Part shown: positions 908 through 5,387 of the stretch, piece after piece
Layout of the letters: the number at the start of each line of letters is the position of its first letter
How positions within the stretch are numbered: the first letter of the stretch is position 1
Source: a virus
Virus record (IMG/VR): IMGVR_UViG_3300032322_001669
Span: 1-23,636 of that record
Reading direction: 5' to 3' (one strand)
DNA: 23,636 nt
Program-made: the position numbers and the translations under genes
Notes under the pieces: model-generated
The model's input: the letters and a program-made list of their open reading frames with translations, nothing else
Database searches by the model: none
Told to the model about the DNA's origin: nothing

Positions 908-1709
908 GTGTGGTAATAATCTTTTTATGATTATTGATTTGTAATGCTGCACTAAACTTTAATGGTTTAGCGGTACACATGTTACATATTTGTTCTGGTT
1001 TACTAGAATTATCACAGAATTTTACCAGATCTTCATCACTACAGTCAACTGGTAATCCATCTCCAAGAAAAGGTTTCCAACAATCATCTTCTAGTTGTTC
1101 AGTAACATAAAGAAGTTCCTTTAGAAAAGCTGCATTAGGACATTTCCAAAGTTTTCCATTATAAAGTTGAGTATTAGGACAAGAACACATCTCATAACTT
1201 TGCTTTATGTTGTTATGGGCATAAGGGAAAACTTTACCATTGGATTGTTTAATCGAATTAAACCAACGATCTTTCCCATCATGGTGTTCTGTAACAAGAA
1301 CCTTAGAACTTTTTACTTTACTAATGTTATCAATAACTTCTGGAGTATGAACACTAACACGCAATTGCATCCCAGGATAAGTTTCTAAATCTTCTTCGAT
1401 CCATTTTCTATTTTCTTCATTAAGAAGAATACCATTAGTGTAAAGATAAACTATCTCTTTGTGTTCTAAACAAGCATGTAAAATGTCTCTACAGCGTTGA
1501 TTGAGTAAAGGTTCTCCTCCAATAACTGAGACACGTTCTACATCTATCCTAGGTAAAATTGTATGGATATCTTCAATAAGTTTATCAGTATCTAATTTGC
1601 TGCCTGGTGCAAAATAGTTACTGAAATGGTTGCATCCTTTACAACTTAGATTACATCCAATTGTTGCACTGATATCAAGAATTTTTAATTTTGGGATTGT
1701 AGTAAGCAA
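903..1709 (-). CDS. Radical SAM protein with C-terminal cysteine-rich (SPASM/twitch-like) region
   Basis: Radical S-adenosylmethionine enzyme of 268 aa. The [4Fe-4S]/SAM motif CxxxCxxC is C19, C23, C26 (CNLSCKGC), followed by a GGEPLL motif typical of the SAM-binding barrel. The C-terminal third carries further cysteines (MCSCPN, KCPN, CDNS, ICNMC), which suggests an auxiliary cluster. The start is TTG at 1707-1709: no suitable ATG precedes the motif, and AGGAG lies 9 bases upstream (1719-1723). The gene overlaps the end of the half-length carbamoyltransferase gene by 35 bases. The substrate is unknown. The neighbourhood of carbamoyltransferases suggests small-molecule, sugar or nucleotide modification, but this is inference. 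Enzyme class is secure, specificity is not. Confidence 0.88.
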   Translation of the reverse strand: MLTTIPKLKILDISATIGCNLSCKGCNHFSNYFAPGSKLDTDKLIEDIHTILPRIDVERVSVIGGEPLLNQRCRDILHACLEHKEIVYLYTNGILLNEENRKWIEEDLETYPGMQLRVSVHTPEVIDNISKVKSSKVLVTEHHDGKDRWFNSIKQSNGKVFPYAHNNIKQSYEMCSCPNTQLYNGKLWKCPNAAFLKELLYVTEQLEDDCWKPFLGDGLPVDCSDEDLVKFCDNSSKPEQICNMCTAKPLKFSAALQINNHKKIITTQ

Positions 1710-2526
1710 GGTAAGCAGCTCCTATAGAAGTTCCACCATCATGTGCGATAGGTTCAATATACATTTTAACATCCTTTGATAATTGTTTGCGAAGTTTATA
1801 ATTAACCACACAATTTAAAAAACAACCTCCAGATAAAACAATGTTCTTACACTTTGTTTTCTCCAGTGCAAGATTGACAAGTTCTAATGCTCGTTCTTCC
1901 CAAAGTGTTTGGATTGTATATGCAGCATCTTCTTTAGAAGATCCTGCAGTATTATACAGATCTACTTTTTTAGACCCATACACAGACAATCCCATAACTT
2001 TTCCAGCATCATCTGGTCCAAATCCACAAAATTTTGAAATGCCTTCAAACAATTTACCAATACCATTCTCTCCAGGTTCCCAATATTTTTTATGAACAGT
2101 CTTCCACTGAAATCTATTTCCAATTTTTGCATGAATAATAGTTTCAATTTCTAATTTATCTGCAATATTAGATCCATTGCTATCAACAACGATACAAGCG
2201 GCTTCATCAAATCCAGAATTATAAAATCCAGCGGCAACATGTGTAAGATGATGTGATTTTCTGTAATCGATATGCTTAGCATCAGGAAATTCTCGTTTAA
2301 ATCTTGCGATATCCCTAGCGGTAATCATGTTTTTCTCAGGAAGAACCCAATGAGCATCAACTGTTGCAATGACATCTACATTAGTTACATAATTTACTAG
2401 GTCCCTAACAGAATAATCATATTTTTTTCTTGTTATACGCTCTGCTTCCAAATAAAAATCTATTTGCCCATCTTTTAATAGACAAATGGATCCATTATTA
2501 GAAAGATTTATTCCTAAAATATTCAT
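1675..2526 (-). CDS. Half-length carbamoyltransferase paralogue (Kae1-like domain only)
   Basis: 283-aa relative of NodU/TobZ-type carbamoyltransferases. It has the ATPase-like N-terminal start (MNILGINLSNNGS), the metal-binding histidines H92/H93/H96 (SHHLTHVAAGFY), the VVDSNGS loop with D115, an SGGCFLNC motif and the DGGTSIGAA motif. It then ends about 20 residues later. The YrdC-like C-terminal domain with EAGPRALGNRSIL, present in the neighbour, is missing. In TobZ the Kae1-like domain transfers the carbamoyl group from a carbamoyl-adenylate made by the YrdC-like domain, so this protein might work with the full-length neighbour or have lost activity. It overlaps the upstream gene by 4 bases (ATGA) and the radical SAM gene by 35. 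No frameshift remnant of the missing domain is visible. Confidence 0.88.
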   Translation of the reverse strand: MNILGINLSNNGSICLLKDGQIDFYLEAERITRKKYDYSVRDLVNYVTNVDVIATVDAHWVLPEKNMITARDIARFKREFPDAKHIDYRKSHHLTHVAAGFYNSGFDEAACIVVDSNGSNIADKLEIETIIHAKIGNRFQWKTVHKKYWEPGENGIGKLFEGISKFCGFGPDDAGKVMGLSVYGSKKVDLYNTAGSSKEDAAYTIQTLWEERALELVNLALEKTKCKNIVLSGGCFLNCVVNYKLRKQLSKDVKMYIEPIAHDGGTSIGAAYLAYYNPKIKNS

Positions 2527-4109
2527 TTTACTATTAATTTTTGAATTTCAGGAAAATAAAGATAGTTAATATCACTATTGTAAAATGTTTTCAAAGCATC
2601 TTCTGGAGTTTCTACTAAAGGTTCTCCTGCAAGATTAAAAGACGTATTGAATAAGATAGGAACTCTTGTCTTTCGATAAAATGCTTCAATCAAATTATAA
2701 TAGTGCTCATTCTGTTCTTTAGTTATAGTTTGAATTCTACATGTCTTATCTACATGAAGTATTGCTGGAATTTTATCATATGCATATTTCAAAGCATCTA
2801 CAGCATACATCATAAAAGGACTTTCATCCATGCCTGCCATGTCAAACCAACCATTTACATATTCTTTTAAAACTGTTCCTGCAAATGGTCGGAATGCTTC
2901 TCGTTTTTTAATTGTATTAACATGATCTTTTCCATTTGGATCTCTAGGATCATAAAGAATAGATCTATTTCCTAACGCTCTTGGTCCTGCTTCAGATCTT
3001 CCTTGGAACATTGCGACAATATTTTTTTCAGAAATTATTCTTGCAACTTCACTATATGAAGTATCTTTCCCCTCGATATGAGAAAGATCATAAGTTGGTC
3101 CTAAGTATAATGTCTTCATGAATGTTTTTTTATCGGAAACTAACATTGCAGATCCAAATGCATGTCCACCGTCATAAGATAATGGATCAGCATATAGATT
3201 TATATCTAATGATTTTAGCACATTAAAATTTGAAACGCAATTCAAAAAGAACCCACCAGAAACAACTACATTCTTTTTTCCAGAAAGTTCAACTGCTTTT
3301 TTAATCATATAAACTGCATGGTTTTCTGCAGATTTTTGTAAGTTGTACGCTAGATTTTCCTTTGTAGTTTCTTCACCATAATACTTTGTCCACCCAACAT
3401 CATCTCGTGGATAAATGTCTTTGCTGCAAAAACTATGGTTGTATTCTTCATTAAATAAATTTACTTTACCAAACCCATAAGCAGACAACCCCATCGTTTT
3501 GCCCGCTTCAATTTCGTCAAACCCGCAGTGTCCAGAAACACATCTAAATGCTTGTCCAACACTAACCCTATTACTAAAAAGGTTTATACCATCCCAGAAA
3601 GGTTCTTCAAGGTTTTCACATAAAGAACGATTGTGAAAACAAGAATAATGTTTAAACAAGGAAATAAATTTTCCATCATTGTAAGTATAGATACTTTCTA
3701 TTTCTGAAAATAATATATCATTTTTAATAATGGAGGATCCTTTTCCATCCATCACCAAACATACAGCATCATCAAATCCAGATCCATAAAAAGCAGACGC
3801 TGCATGACACTCATGATGCCTAGCACTAAAATCTAAAACCTGTTTTACTCCTCTAGAGTATAAAAGATGTTCTAAGTTTTTTCTAGCAGCAACTCTTTCT
3901 AAATGTCCTTTGAAAGAATATCTTGTAAAGCAATCGGAATAAATCGCAACATCAATTGTATCGTCTACAAATTTTTCACATAATGCATACGCACCAACAT
4001 CACGTTTTATTCTAGTAACTCTTTCTTCTTCAAGATAAAGATCTAATTGACCATTATTGACTATTGCAATAGATCCATTTTTTGCTAAGTTTATCCCTAA
4101 AACCTTCAT
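2523..4109 (-). CDS. Carbamoyltransferase, NodU/TobZ family, full length
   Basis: 528-aa enzyme expected to transfer a carbamoyl group from carbamoyl phosphate, via an adenylate, to a hydroxyl on a sugar, antibiotic or modified base. The Kae1-like half starts MKVLGINLAKNGS and carries metal ligands H98/H99/H102 (RHHECHAASAFY), D121 in VMDGKGSS, SGGFFLNCVSN and YDGGHAFGSA. The C-terminal YrdC-like half has EAGPRALGNRSIL, FRPFAG and LFNTSFNLAGEPLV. I chose ATG 4107-4109, which overlaps the thyX stop by 4 bases and aligns with the paralogue's start; a GTG two codons upstream is the alternative. Carbamoyltransferases of this family occur in several marine cyanophages. The acceptor cannot be read from the sequence. 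Confidence 0.93.
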   Translation of the reverse strand: MKVLGINLAKNGSIAIVNNGQLDLYLEEERVTRIKRDVGAYALCEKFVDDTIDVAIYSDCFTRYSFKGHLERVAARKNLEHLLYSRGVKQVLDFSARHHECHAASAFYGSGFDDAVCLVMDGKGSSIIKNDILFSEIESIYTYNDGKFISLFKHYSCFHNRSLCENLEEPFWDGINLFSNRVSVGQAFRCVSGHCGFDEIEAGKTMGLSAYGFGKVNLFNEEYNHSFCSKDIYPRDDVGWTKYYGEETTKENLAYNLQKSAENHAVYMIKKAVELSGKKNVVVSGGFFLNCVSNFNVLKSLDINLYADPLSYDGGHAFGSAMLVSDKKTFMKTLYLGPTYDLSHIEGKDTSYSEVARIISEKNIVAMFQGRSEAGPRALGNRSILYDPRDPNGKDHVNTIKKREAFRPFAGTVLKEYVNGWFDMAGMDESPFMMYAVDALKYAYDKIPAILHVDKTCRIQTITKEQNEHYYNLIEAFYRKTRVPILFNTSFNLAGEPLVETPEDALKTFYNSDINYLYFPEIQKLIVK

Positions 4110-4741
4110 GCCCACTCAAGTGCTTCAGATACCACAGGAAATTGTTCTACAAATAATTTTTTACATTCATTCGCAATATCCATATGCTCTTTCTGAGTTC
4201 CGTTAGCAGAACGAAGATTAATATAATGAATCCAAGAACGTACAGACCCAGACATATAAATGCGTGTAGGAGTTGCAAGAGGAAGAACAAAACGAGCACA
4301 TTCTTTTGCTACTCCCTTATCAAGAAGTTCCTTATATAGTTCCATAGATGCCTGAAAATGATCATTGATCTTCAACCAAAGATCTTGTTTCATATCTTCA
4401 GAGAAATCATCAATAGAATTTTGACGGTTCTTAGTATCCTGACGACGAAGATCTGGTACTGGAATTTCAGTTGCTAAAAGATTAGTGTCTGCATAACGTT
4501 GAGAAAACTCTTGATACGTGAAACTTCTGTGACGCAAGATTTGTGCTGCGATACCACGGTTGGTTTCAATCTCAAGCGTCATAAATGCCTGCTCAAAAAC
4601 AGACCAATGATTGTGCTTAATACAATAACGTAACAGACCTGCATAGTTTTCATTATCTTGATTTGCTGGATTAGAAACCCTAGCAACATATGCCATTGTT
4701 TGTTCTGCATCTGGCGTTACACTAATCAAACGTACTGTCAT
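4106..4741 (-). CDS. thyX: Flavin-dependent thymidylate synthase
   Basis: 211-aa ThyX, which makes dTMP from dUMP using FAD, NADPH and methylene-tetrahydrofolate. The signature RHR-x7-S is present at R70-H71-R72 ... S80 (RHRSFTYQEFS), and the C-terminal substrate-binding region LRSANGTQKEHMDIA is intact. I start at ATG 4739-4741 (MTVRLISVTP), which fits family length. An in-frame ATG at 4774 would add 11 lysine-rich residues that read through the end of the upstream gene. It overlaps the 60-aa gene by 20 bases and the carbamoyltransferase by 4. It supports phage DNA synthesis by supplying thymidylate during host takeover, as in many marine cyanophages. There is no sign it is a dCMP hydroxymethylase, which belongs to the unrelated ThyA fold. 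Confidence 0.96.
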   Translation of the reverse strand: MTVRLISVTPDAEQTMAYVARVSNPANQDNENYAGLLRYCIKHNHWSVFEQAFMTLEIETNRGIAAQILRHRSFTYQEFSQRYADTNLLATEIPVPDLRRQDTKNRQNSIDDFSEDMKQDLWLKINDHFQASMELYKELLDKGVAKECARFVLPLATPTRIYMSGSVRSWIHYINLRSANGTQKEHMDIANECKKLFVEQFPVVSEALEWA

Positions 4742-4904
4742 TGTTTCCAAATCCTTTTTTCTTTTGTTTGTCAAATTTTTTTCTTGCTAGTCCCAGAATA
4801 GCATCATCTAAAGCACGTTTCATATAAGTCAATTCAGCATCAGAATACTTCCAAGGCTGTTCTAGTGCTTTTTTTACTAATCGAATTGTTTCCTTATATC
4901 GCAT
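4722..4904 (-). CDS. Small basic conserved phage-type protein (60 aa)
   Basis: 60-aa protein starting MRYKETIRLVKKAL and ending in a lysine-rich stretch (KKFDKQKKKGFGNND). It looks mainly alpha-helical and has no recognisable domain. Evidence that it is real: it has a consensus ribosome site (AGGAGG, about 10 bases upstream of the ATG), it lies immediately downstream of a near-perfect sigma70 promoter (4928-4956) with a leader of only about 17 bases, and it is tightly coupled to thyX by a 20-base overlap. It is therefore the first gene of the transcript that also carries thyX, the carbamoyltransferases and the radical SAM gene. The function is unknown. Confidence 0.8.
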   Translation of the reverse strand: MRYKETIRLVKKALEQPWKYSDAELTYMKRALDDAILGLARKKFDKQKKKGFGNNDSTFD

Positions 4905-4927
4905 TAGATAGTACCTCCTGTATACTA

Positions 4928-4956
4928 ATTATACCAATAAAAAAGGGGGAAGTCAA
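4928..4956 (-). promoter_or_regulatory. Early sigma70-type promoter of the thyX operon
   Basis: On the minus strand, TTGACT (4951-4956), a 17-base spacer, and TATAAT (4928-4933). The -10 is perfect and the -35 has one mismatch to the sigma70 consensus. Expected start is near 4921, giving a leader of about 17 bases with AGGAGG for the 60-aa gene. The -35 box lies in the loop of the terminator just upstream. One of four such promoters in this window, all with 17-base spacers. Confidence 0.85.
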
Positions 4957-4963
4957 TTCCCCC
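4936..4963 (-). terminator. Rho-independent terminator of the 43-aa gene
   Basis: A perfect 7-bp stem (GGGGGAA / TTCCCCC, 4945-4951 with 4957-4963) and a 5-base loop are followed on the minus strand by TTTTTTATT (4936-4944). It starts 6 bases after the stop of the 43-aa gene. This is a textbook intrinsic terminator. The loop contains most of the -35 box of the next promoter, so termination and re-initiation share the same bases. Confidence 0.88.
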
Positions 4964-4969
4964 GATCAA

Positions 4970-5101
4970 TCATCCTTTAAGTTGCATTTGCGCCTGCTTT
5001 AGACGCTCTGCTTTTTCAATTTGTTCTTTTAGAAGTTGAAGAACATTAAGTTTACGCTCTTCAACTTCATATTTTACGCCTCTGTACGTTGCAGTAGTCA
5101 T
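4970..5101 (-). CDS. 43-aa protein with YRGVKY (DUF4278-like) start
   Basis: Very short gene, 43 aa, starting MTTATYRGVKYEVEERKLN and ending in a charged helix (LKQAQMQLKG). The xxYRGVKY opening resembles the small DUF4278 proteins of cyanobacteria and their phages, whose function is unknown. Support for reality: ribosome site AGGAG 7-8 bases upstream of ATG 5099-5101, and a strong intrinsic terminator immediately after the stop. It is co-transcribed with the 49-aa gene 40 bases upstream, from the promoter at 5359-5387. The predicted helix is heptad-like and could self-associate, but that is speculation. Confidence 0.78.
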   Translation of the reverse strand: MTTATYRGVKYEVEERKLNVLQLLKEQIEKAERLKQAQMQLKG

Positions 5102-5141
5102 TTTGTTTCTCCTGAATGAATGGATTTTTAGGTCCGTTCCT

Positions 5142-5291
5142 TCAGCCGTTTGCGTCTATGCTGCACTTCTTGGGGGAAACCCTTACGAGTTCTGCAATAA
5201 TTTGTTGTTTCACTATAGCAGGATAATAAGAATTGTTCACCCTACTAACTAGTTGTCCAAATTGCAAACAAGTAATTAGAACTGCTTCCAT
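5142..5291 (-). CDS. 49-aa conserved-looking small protein
   Basis: 49-aa protein with a hydrophobic start (MEAVLITCLQFGQLVSRVNN), a helical middle (AIVKQQIIAELVRV) and the tail SPKKCSIDANG. I recognise similar short proteins (MExxLITCxQF...) from marine cyanophages, but no function is known. The ATG is at 5289-5291, with GGAG 9 bases upstream. It is the first gene downstream of a near-perfect sigma70 promoter and is preceded by an 8-bp stem-loop at the 5' end of the transcript. It and the 43-aa gene form a small early unit closed by the terminator at 4936-4963. Confidence 0.72.
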   Translation of the reverse strand: MEAVLITCLQFGQLVSRVNNSYYPAIVKQQIIAELVRVSPKKCSIDANG

Positions 5292-5323
5292 AGATGAACG
5301 CTCCGTTCCGCGACTTACTTGCG

Positions 5324-5345
5324 TTCGCTATCTGAAAATAGCGAA
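5324..5345 (-). promoter_or_regulatory. 5'-terminal stem-loop in early leader
   Basis: A perfect 8-bp inverted repeat (TTCGCTAT / ATAGCGAA; 5324-5331 with 5338-5345) with a 6-base loop. It begins only a few bases downstream of the expected transcription start (near 5352) of the 49-aa/43-aa transcript. Such 5' stem-loops commonly protect mRNA from 5'-end-dependent decay; that role here is inference. Confidence 0.6.
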
Positions 5346-5358
5346 TGAACGTAGACAC

Positions 5359-5387
5359 ATTATAGCGTCTATACACTATCTAGTCAA
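5359..5387 (-). promoter_or_regulatory. Early sigma70-type promoter of the 49-aa/43-aa genes
   Basis: TTGACT (5382-5387), a 17-base spacer and TATAAT (5359-5364) on the minus strand. It lies in the 114-base gap between the DUF6433-like gene and the 49-aa gene and points at the latter. Nothing else coding is supported in this gap. Confidence 0.85.

Follow-up and report, generated by a model that had tools for sequence, protein, structure and literature searches.

A candidate terminator-promoter fusion with its -35 box in the hairpin loop, upstream of thyX in a T4-like cyanophage and its relatives

Promoter early stem-loops (PeSLs) are reportedly the subject of Arbiol et al. in 2010 for RB49/phi1, and those of KVP40 and nt-1 are said to have been treated by Comeau et al. 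in 2014. In the work cited in PMC4503421, PeSLs appear as cassettes in which T4-like phages combine a promoter with a stem-loop; in general terms, a PeSL joins an early promoter of sigma70-like type to a terminator stem-loop pointing in the same direction, and the element described here has this composition. A second related system is RNA polymerase recycling, in which intrinsically terminated Escherichia coli RNA polymerase usually stays on the DNA, slides and can reinitiate nearby (PMC6978380, PMC6978322). Cyanomyoviruses are without alt/modA/modB, the T4 enzymes that modify host polymerase, and are believed to transcribe their early genes with the unmodified sigma70 enzyme of the host (PMC2984593).

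We analysed a window of 23,636 bases (the whole stretch of an IMG/VR virus record) carrying psbA, thyX and carbamoyltransferase genes. Its source is a T4-like cyanomyovirus, a virus of photosynthetic marine bacteria, and most of its relatives are phages of Synechococcus and Prochlorococcus. Between two small genes of this window a terminator and a promoter share bases, and, judged from sequence, this element is real, functional-looking and widespread. Phages would thereby repeatedly pack stop and start signals into one 36-bp stretch, following a simple evolutionary rule whereby the -35 box goes in the loop, where termination is indifferent to sequence.

A composite element between two small genes

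The minus strand at window positions 4963-4928 reads GGGGGAA-TTGAC-TTCCCCC-TTTTTTATTGG-TATAAT, and is located in the gap that separates the stop codon of one small gene (43 aa) from the ATG (4904) of the next (60 aa), which leads into thyX (Table 1). Rechecking of the sequence found the coordinates given by the initial annotation exact to the base, and agreed with its description of one composite element, in which the loop plus its closing base form the -35 box and the U-tract is the spacer. Folding of the RNA gives the 7-bp hairpin as the structure of minimum energy (-12.5 kcal/mol; z -2.06), and its terminator is the sole one above the score threshold in the window. Exact TTGAC/TATAAT promoters whose spacer measures 16-18 bp number only four in the window, this one included. 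The -10 is of the extended type (TG at 4936-4935, TGG preceding TATAAT). The 3' end of the 43-aa transcript is expected at about 4937-4939 and the start site of the thyX unit is predicted at about 4921, relative to which the hairpin DNA occupies approximately -42 to -24. Rfam and tRNA scans of the window gave no matches.

Table 1. Features of the composite element and of the flanking units, in window coordinates
Feature	Position	Strand	Basis
Consensus promoter TTGACT-17-TATAAT	5359-5387	-	sequence
43-aa gene (PHROG 5049/545), upstream; stop codon 6 nt ahead of hairpin	4970-5101	-	profile match; kept in orthologues
Terminator hairpin, 5' arm GGGGGAA	4957-4963	-	sequence, fold, covarying arms in relatives
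Hairpin loop TTGAC	4952-4956	-	sequence
-35 hexamer TTGACT (5/6), loop plus first base of 3' arm	4951-4956	-	sequence
Terminator hairpin, 3' arm TTCCCCC	4945-4951	-	sequence, fold
U-tract TTTTTTATT	4936-4944	-	sequence
17-bp promoter spacer: six 3'-arm bases, U-tract and TGG of the extended -10	4934-4950	-	sequence
-10 hexamer TATAAT (6/6)	4928-4933	-	sequence
Shine-Dalgarno AGGAGGT (strong)	4919-4913	-	sequence
60-aa gene (PHROG 6449), first in downstream unit	4722-4904	-	profile match
thyX, flavin-dependent thymidylate synthase	4106-4741	-	profile match, alignments of relatives

Upstream, the promoter at 5387-5359 probably drives the 43-aa unit, from which it is separated by a leader of about 250-270 nt (window 5101-5376); this leader has a possible 49-aa ORF at 5291-5142 and gave no Rfam match. 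Downstream, the start of thyX is likely the ATG at 4741, because the alignments to most relatives begin at residue 12 of the ORF as listed (4106-4774); the listed ORF begins with TTG at 4774, and the ATG, which has a good ribosome site, fits the relatives better. From this ATG, thyX overlaps the 60-aa gene by 20 nt, which suggests translational coupling of the two. Elsewhere in the window, two adjacent ORFs (1675-4115) both have the phage Nol-like carbamoyltransferase family as their match; 2523-4115 covers the whole profile and 1675-2526 its initial part, which suggests that a gene has been split or duplicated.

Spacing, loop and stem across viral loci

The association of the two signals was examined in IMG/VR from both sides. 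In the loop test, hairpins of the form GGG..TTGAC..CCC followed by T5 were picked with no requirement for a -10. Of 86 TTGAC-loop hairpins, 62% had a -10 (at least 5/6) at a spacing of exactly 17 bp, with every other spacing accounting for 0-5%, as compared to 4% of 48 hairpins whose loop holds the same letters reversed (CAGTT). For spacings of 16-18 the counts were 59/86 and 4/48, respectively (p 3e-12, a value uncorrected for relatedness and inflated, relatives being non-independent samples). The whole collection held at least 120 loci with TTGAC-loop hairpins versus 69 with CAGTT-loop hairpins. A GTCAA loop was dropped as a null for being unclean, since its A-tract/hairpin/T-tract sites can be read on both strands. 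In the reverse test, TTGAC..CCTTTT..TATAAT promoters were picked with no requirement for a stem, and a GC stem placing the -35 in a hairpin was found in 61 of the 114 distinct viral matches listed (null of 18.5, upstream flanks swapped) and in 8 of 117 from bacterial and archaeal genomes (null of 1.7). When a single fixed loop geometry was imposed on the promoter-chosen matches, about half were paired, because loop length ranges from 3 to 9.

At the level of genomes, 11 of 190 terminators were fused, versus 0.66 expected from permuted consensus hexamers, in a set of eight cyanophage genomes (S-PM2, S-CREM1, S-ShM2, ACG-2014d, S-CAM9, most of P-SSM2, Syn9 and part of S-SKS1); Syn9 yielded no fused element at the thresholds used. 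Among the cultured cyanophages, fused elements were located at 124303 in S-PM2, at 65745 and 79000 in S-CREM1, at 142791 in P-SSM2 and at 198132 in S-SKS1. Over all viral loci examined, a set that includes loci selected for the element, we counted 242 distinct fused elements, 194 of them with a spacer of 17. Pipelines that annotate terminators independently of promoters will overlook such cyanophage elements or break them up.

In 54 of 80 loci a fused element preceded thyX by no more than 915 nt, nearly all with spacer 17, and 50 of the 155 terminators in these 80 loci were fused, versus 1.08 expected. Stems ranged from GGGGGAA to GAGGGTTC, AGGAGGGT and GGGAGGTC, with matching 3' arms. The remaining 26 loci consisted of 12 with neither signal, 12 with a terminator only and two with too little sequence. 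In at least 8 of the 12 terminator-only loci, the stem, the U-tract and a -10-like box are kept while the loop -35 is degenerate or lost; the S-SKS1 thyX leader, for instance, has a GCAA loop and an extended -10, the -35 being gone. Because these relatives keep the other parts, the promoter half appears able to lose its -35, which is not always needed, and this is awkward for a strict two-signal rule. The idea that an extended -10 makes up for the lost -35 was rejected, as TGn turns up less often, and not more often, where the -35 is weak (31/164 vs 70/188). Overall, the expectation that related cyanophages carry the composite element was borne out by the IMG/VR scans, the cyanophage genomes and the 54 thyX loci. 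As to relatives lacking one half, which the initial annotation had regarded as counting against the element, the picture is favourable but mixed: the 54 loci with both halves are set against the 12 with a terminator only, the 12 with neither signal, and Syn9.

In the window and two orthologous loci (L122 and L098), the 36-bp element is identical except for one spacer base, while the same three sequences have diverged between the stop codon and the hairpin and at upstream codon positions. In a set of 23 distinct fused elements, each with arms of 7 bp around a 5-nt loop, double changes occurred at all 7 stem pairs (54 cells vs 14.1 in shuffles) with the loop remaining TTGAC-like; this set was picked for having stems, so that pairing is 100% by construction and the evidence lies solely in how diverse the pair types are. 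The stem of the fused elements thus covaries, while the -35, the spacer and the -10 are fixed. Clustering of the genes beside the thyX elements gave nine upstream groups (largest 16, 12 and 11; the upstream gene was taken as the longest nearby ORF, and single assignments may be wrong) versus one downstream family in 49 of 54. Therefore the element most likely stays with the downstream operon while varied small genes arrive upstream, as would an insulating module boundary.

Other arrangements were encountered in the course of these scans. In S-PM2 (NC_006820, 124303-124343), a fused element with a loop -35 lies directly upstream of an hli gene and overlaps the end of the preceding ORF. In Acinetobacter phage ZZ1 (L706, 797-842), a non-cyanophage T4-like, a fused-looking element with a weak -35, consisting of the hairpin AAAAGGGGAAAG-TTG-CTTTCCCCTTTT and then TATAAT, lies just upstream of gp43. 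A second, nested composite (class II) is carried by loci L041, L044, L045, L071, L090, L110, L536, L544, L708 and others, and up to about 380 phage records match a 55-nt query for it. It is laid out as an outer G/C stem, an inner hairpin AACTGG-CAAAAT-CCAGTT, and then a T-tract and a -10; its -35, TTGACA, spans the 3' side of the inner stem with GAC as a 3-nt bulge (fold of -19.5 kcal/mol; z -5.1). The motif CTGGCAAAATCCAG is nearly constant in this composite, the inner loop is constant, and the inner and outer stems are variable. The composite is found upstream of an ORF that precedes psbA, or is flanked by hsp20 and gp43.

Proposed mechanism and alternative readings

Both signals are present in the sequence, they are co-conserved at a fixed spacing with a covarying stem, and the upstream genes vary while the downstream one is retained. 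We consider it quite likely that the element is a fused intrinsic terminator and sigma70-type promoter, with both signals working as drawn. RNA of the 43-aa unit, probably begun at 5387-5359, would fold the GC hairpin and be released in the U-tract near 4938; host holoenzyme would bind the same duplex at the loop-encoded TTGACT and at TGG-TATAAT; and the 60-aa/thyX transcript would start near 4921, about 15 bp beyond the U-tract. The location of the -35 in the loop would leave the arms free to vary, so that both signals could fit into 36 bp. The result would be a compact boundary at which any upstream unit is ended and the downstream operon retains its own start. From this arrangement we infer that both signals are active, that they act early, and that selection has favoured the element for insulation. 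The proposal of the initial annotation that two units are insulated in under 40 bases is the best reading.

The view that a terminating polymerase sits on the next promoter has the geometry right, since the active site near 4938 would fall between the -35 and the -10. Such a polymerase would cover the -10, so that termination and initiation should be mutually exclusive for at least a short time. The converse claim, that an initiating polymerase opens the DNA encoding the hairpin, was mistaken, because a sigma70 open complex melts only from roughly -11 to +2 (here about 4932-4919), downstream of the hairpin, which would stay duplex.

An unlikely alternative is active coupling, whereby the polymerase would remain bound to the DNA after release, take up sigma again and start anew from the promoter beneath it, so that the upstream unit feeds the downstream one. 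The retention and reinitiation described for terminated E. coli polymerase agree with it, and reinitiation is expected to depend on the terminator-promoter distance (PMC6978380), which is essentially zero here; however, this behaviour has been demonstrated only in vitro with the E. coli enzyme, a promoter covered by polymerase could equally be blocked, and close packing alone explains the geometry. Terminators with a loop -35 might serve as relays, the polymerase restarting at once on the promoter that it occupies and so passing transcription between small phage units without leaving the DNA; we regard this as doubtful. The hosts are not known to have Rho. For in vivo restart by terminated polymerases, the class offers many natural minimal templates with a terminator-promoter distance near zero.

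It is also rather improbable that the element is mainly a mobile recombination cassette, providing short homology for module exchange as proposed for PeSLs. The varying upstream genes and the kept downstream operon would fit such a role, and PeSLs are reported, in work cited in PMC4503421, to mediate shuffling in T4-like phages, but the stems differ among copies and the window holds one copy, so that the shared homology is short. Moreover, the covariation shows selection for signal function, and PeSL-mediated exchange was judged unlikely for the S-PM2 ORFanage region (PMC4503421).

Very improbable is a DNA operator, in which the inverted repeat over the -35 would bind a dimeric repressor or activator and would not be a terminator. 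Operators are commonly positioned as inverted repeats with the -35 at their centre, and in the nested class-II variant a constant palindrome, CTGGCAAAATCCAG, immediately precedes the -35. In the fused elements, however, the arms vary freely yet stay complementary, which is what an RNA hairpin would demand and is incompatible with a sequence-specific operator; the hairpin runs directly into a T-tract, and the 5' arm is 80% purine. The operator is thus disfavoured by the covarying arms. Finally, accidental overlap of a terminator with promoter-like sequence, conceivable in that AT-rich sequence is often near T-rich terminators, is rejected as practically negligible by 300 random windows matched in dinucleotide content (none with a fused element of equal quality, six with any fused element at lax thresholds), by permuted-consensus nulls far below the observed fused counts, and by the exact 17-bp spacing together with the reversed-loop control.

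Comparison with PeSLs and polymerase recycling

The fused terminator and promoter described here was compared with PeSL geometries measured in phage genomes. In RB49/phi1, as in the cyanophage element, a strong terminator and a strong TTGACA/TATAAT early promoter are combined in one short cassette. In contrast to the cyanophage element, the RB49 signals are in tandem and not fused, a hairpin with a GAAA/TTCG loop being followed by the U-tract and then by the -35, and none of 42 RB49 terminators was fused at a threshold of at least 10/12. In such tandem arrangements the distance from the stem to the start of the -35 is about 14-19 nt for RB49 (10-19 nt in the direct comparison with cyanophages), 5-19 nt for Aeh1 and 15 nt for T4. 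This geometry, in which the -35 is downstream of the U-tract, is not that of the cyanophage element, whose -35 lies 11-15 nt ahead of the stem end.

Templates used in the RNA polymerase recycling studies likewise have a terminator beside a promoter in the same direction, a layout suggested there to couple units (PMC6978380, PMC6978322), but those findings were obtained in vitro on engineered templates, and coupling by the cyanophage element would be hypothetical.

The closest likeness is with KVP40 and nt-1, whose hairpins, from the phage names and the motif, we take to be the PeSLs of Comeau et al. In those phages, too, a terminator and a sigma70-like promoter share bases (AAGGGTTGAC-AGAT-GTCAGCCCTT-TTTTG-TATTAT). 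The difference is that TTGAC lies in the 5' arm, paired with GTCA, whereas it lies in the loop in cyanophages, and the -35 begins 17-20 nt ahead of the stem end in KVP40/nt-1 versus usually 11-15 nt in cyanophages. Because TTGAC is inside the 5' arm, the KVP40/nt-1 stems are nearly constant between copies (GGGTTGAC/GTCAGCCC), while cyanophage stems covary freely. KVP40 has 8 near-identical copies; the window, a fragment only, has one, and cyanophage genomes have 0-4 with differing stems. KVP40-type GGGTTGAC/GTCARCCC hairpins were absent from the cyanophage reference genomes and the thyX loci. Our literature search, which did not extend to the original PeSL papers or the Syn9 transcriptome paper, found no description of a promoter box inside a terminator loop; because the former lay outside it, we do not claim the loop -35 geometry as undescribed, and an earlier description may exist. 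Fusion itself is not new among T4-like phages, and placement of the -35 in the loop, which would free the stem, is the variant seen in cyanophages.
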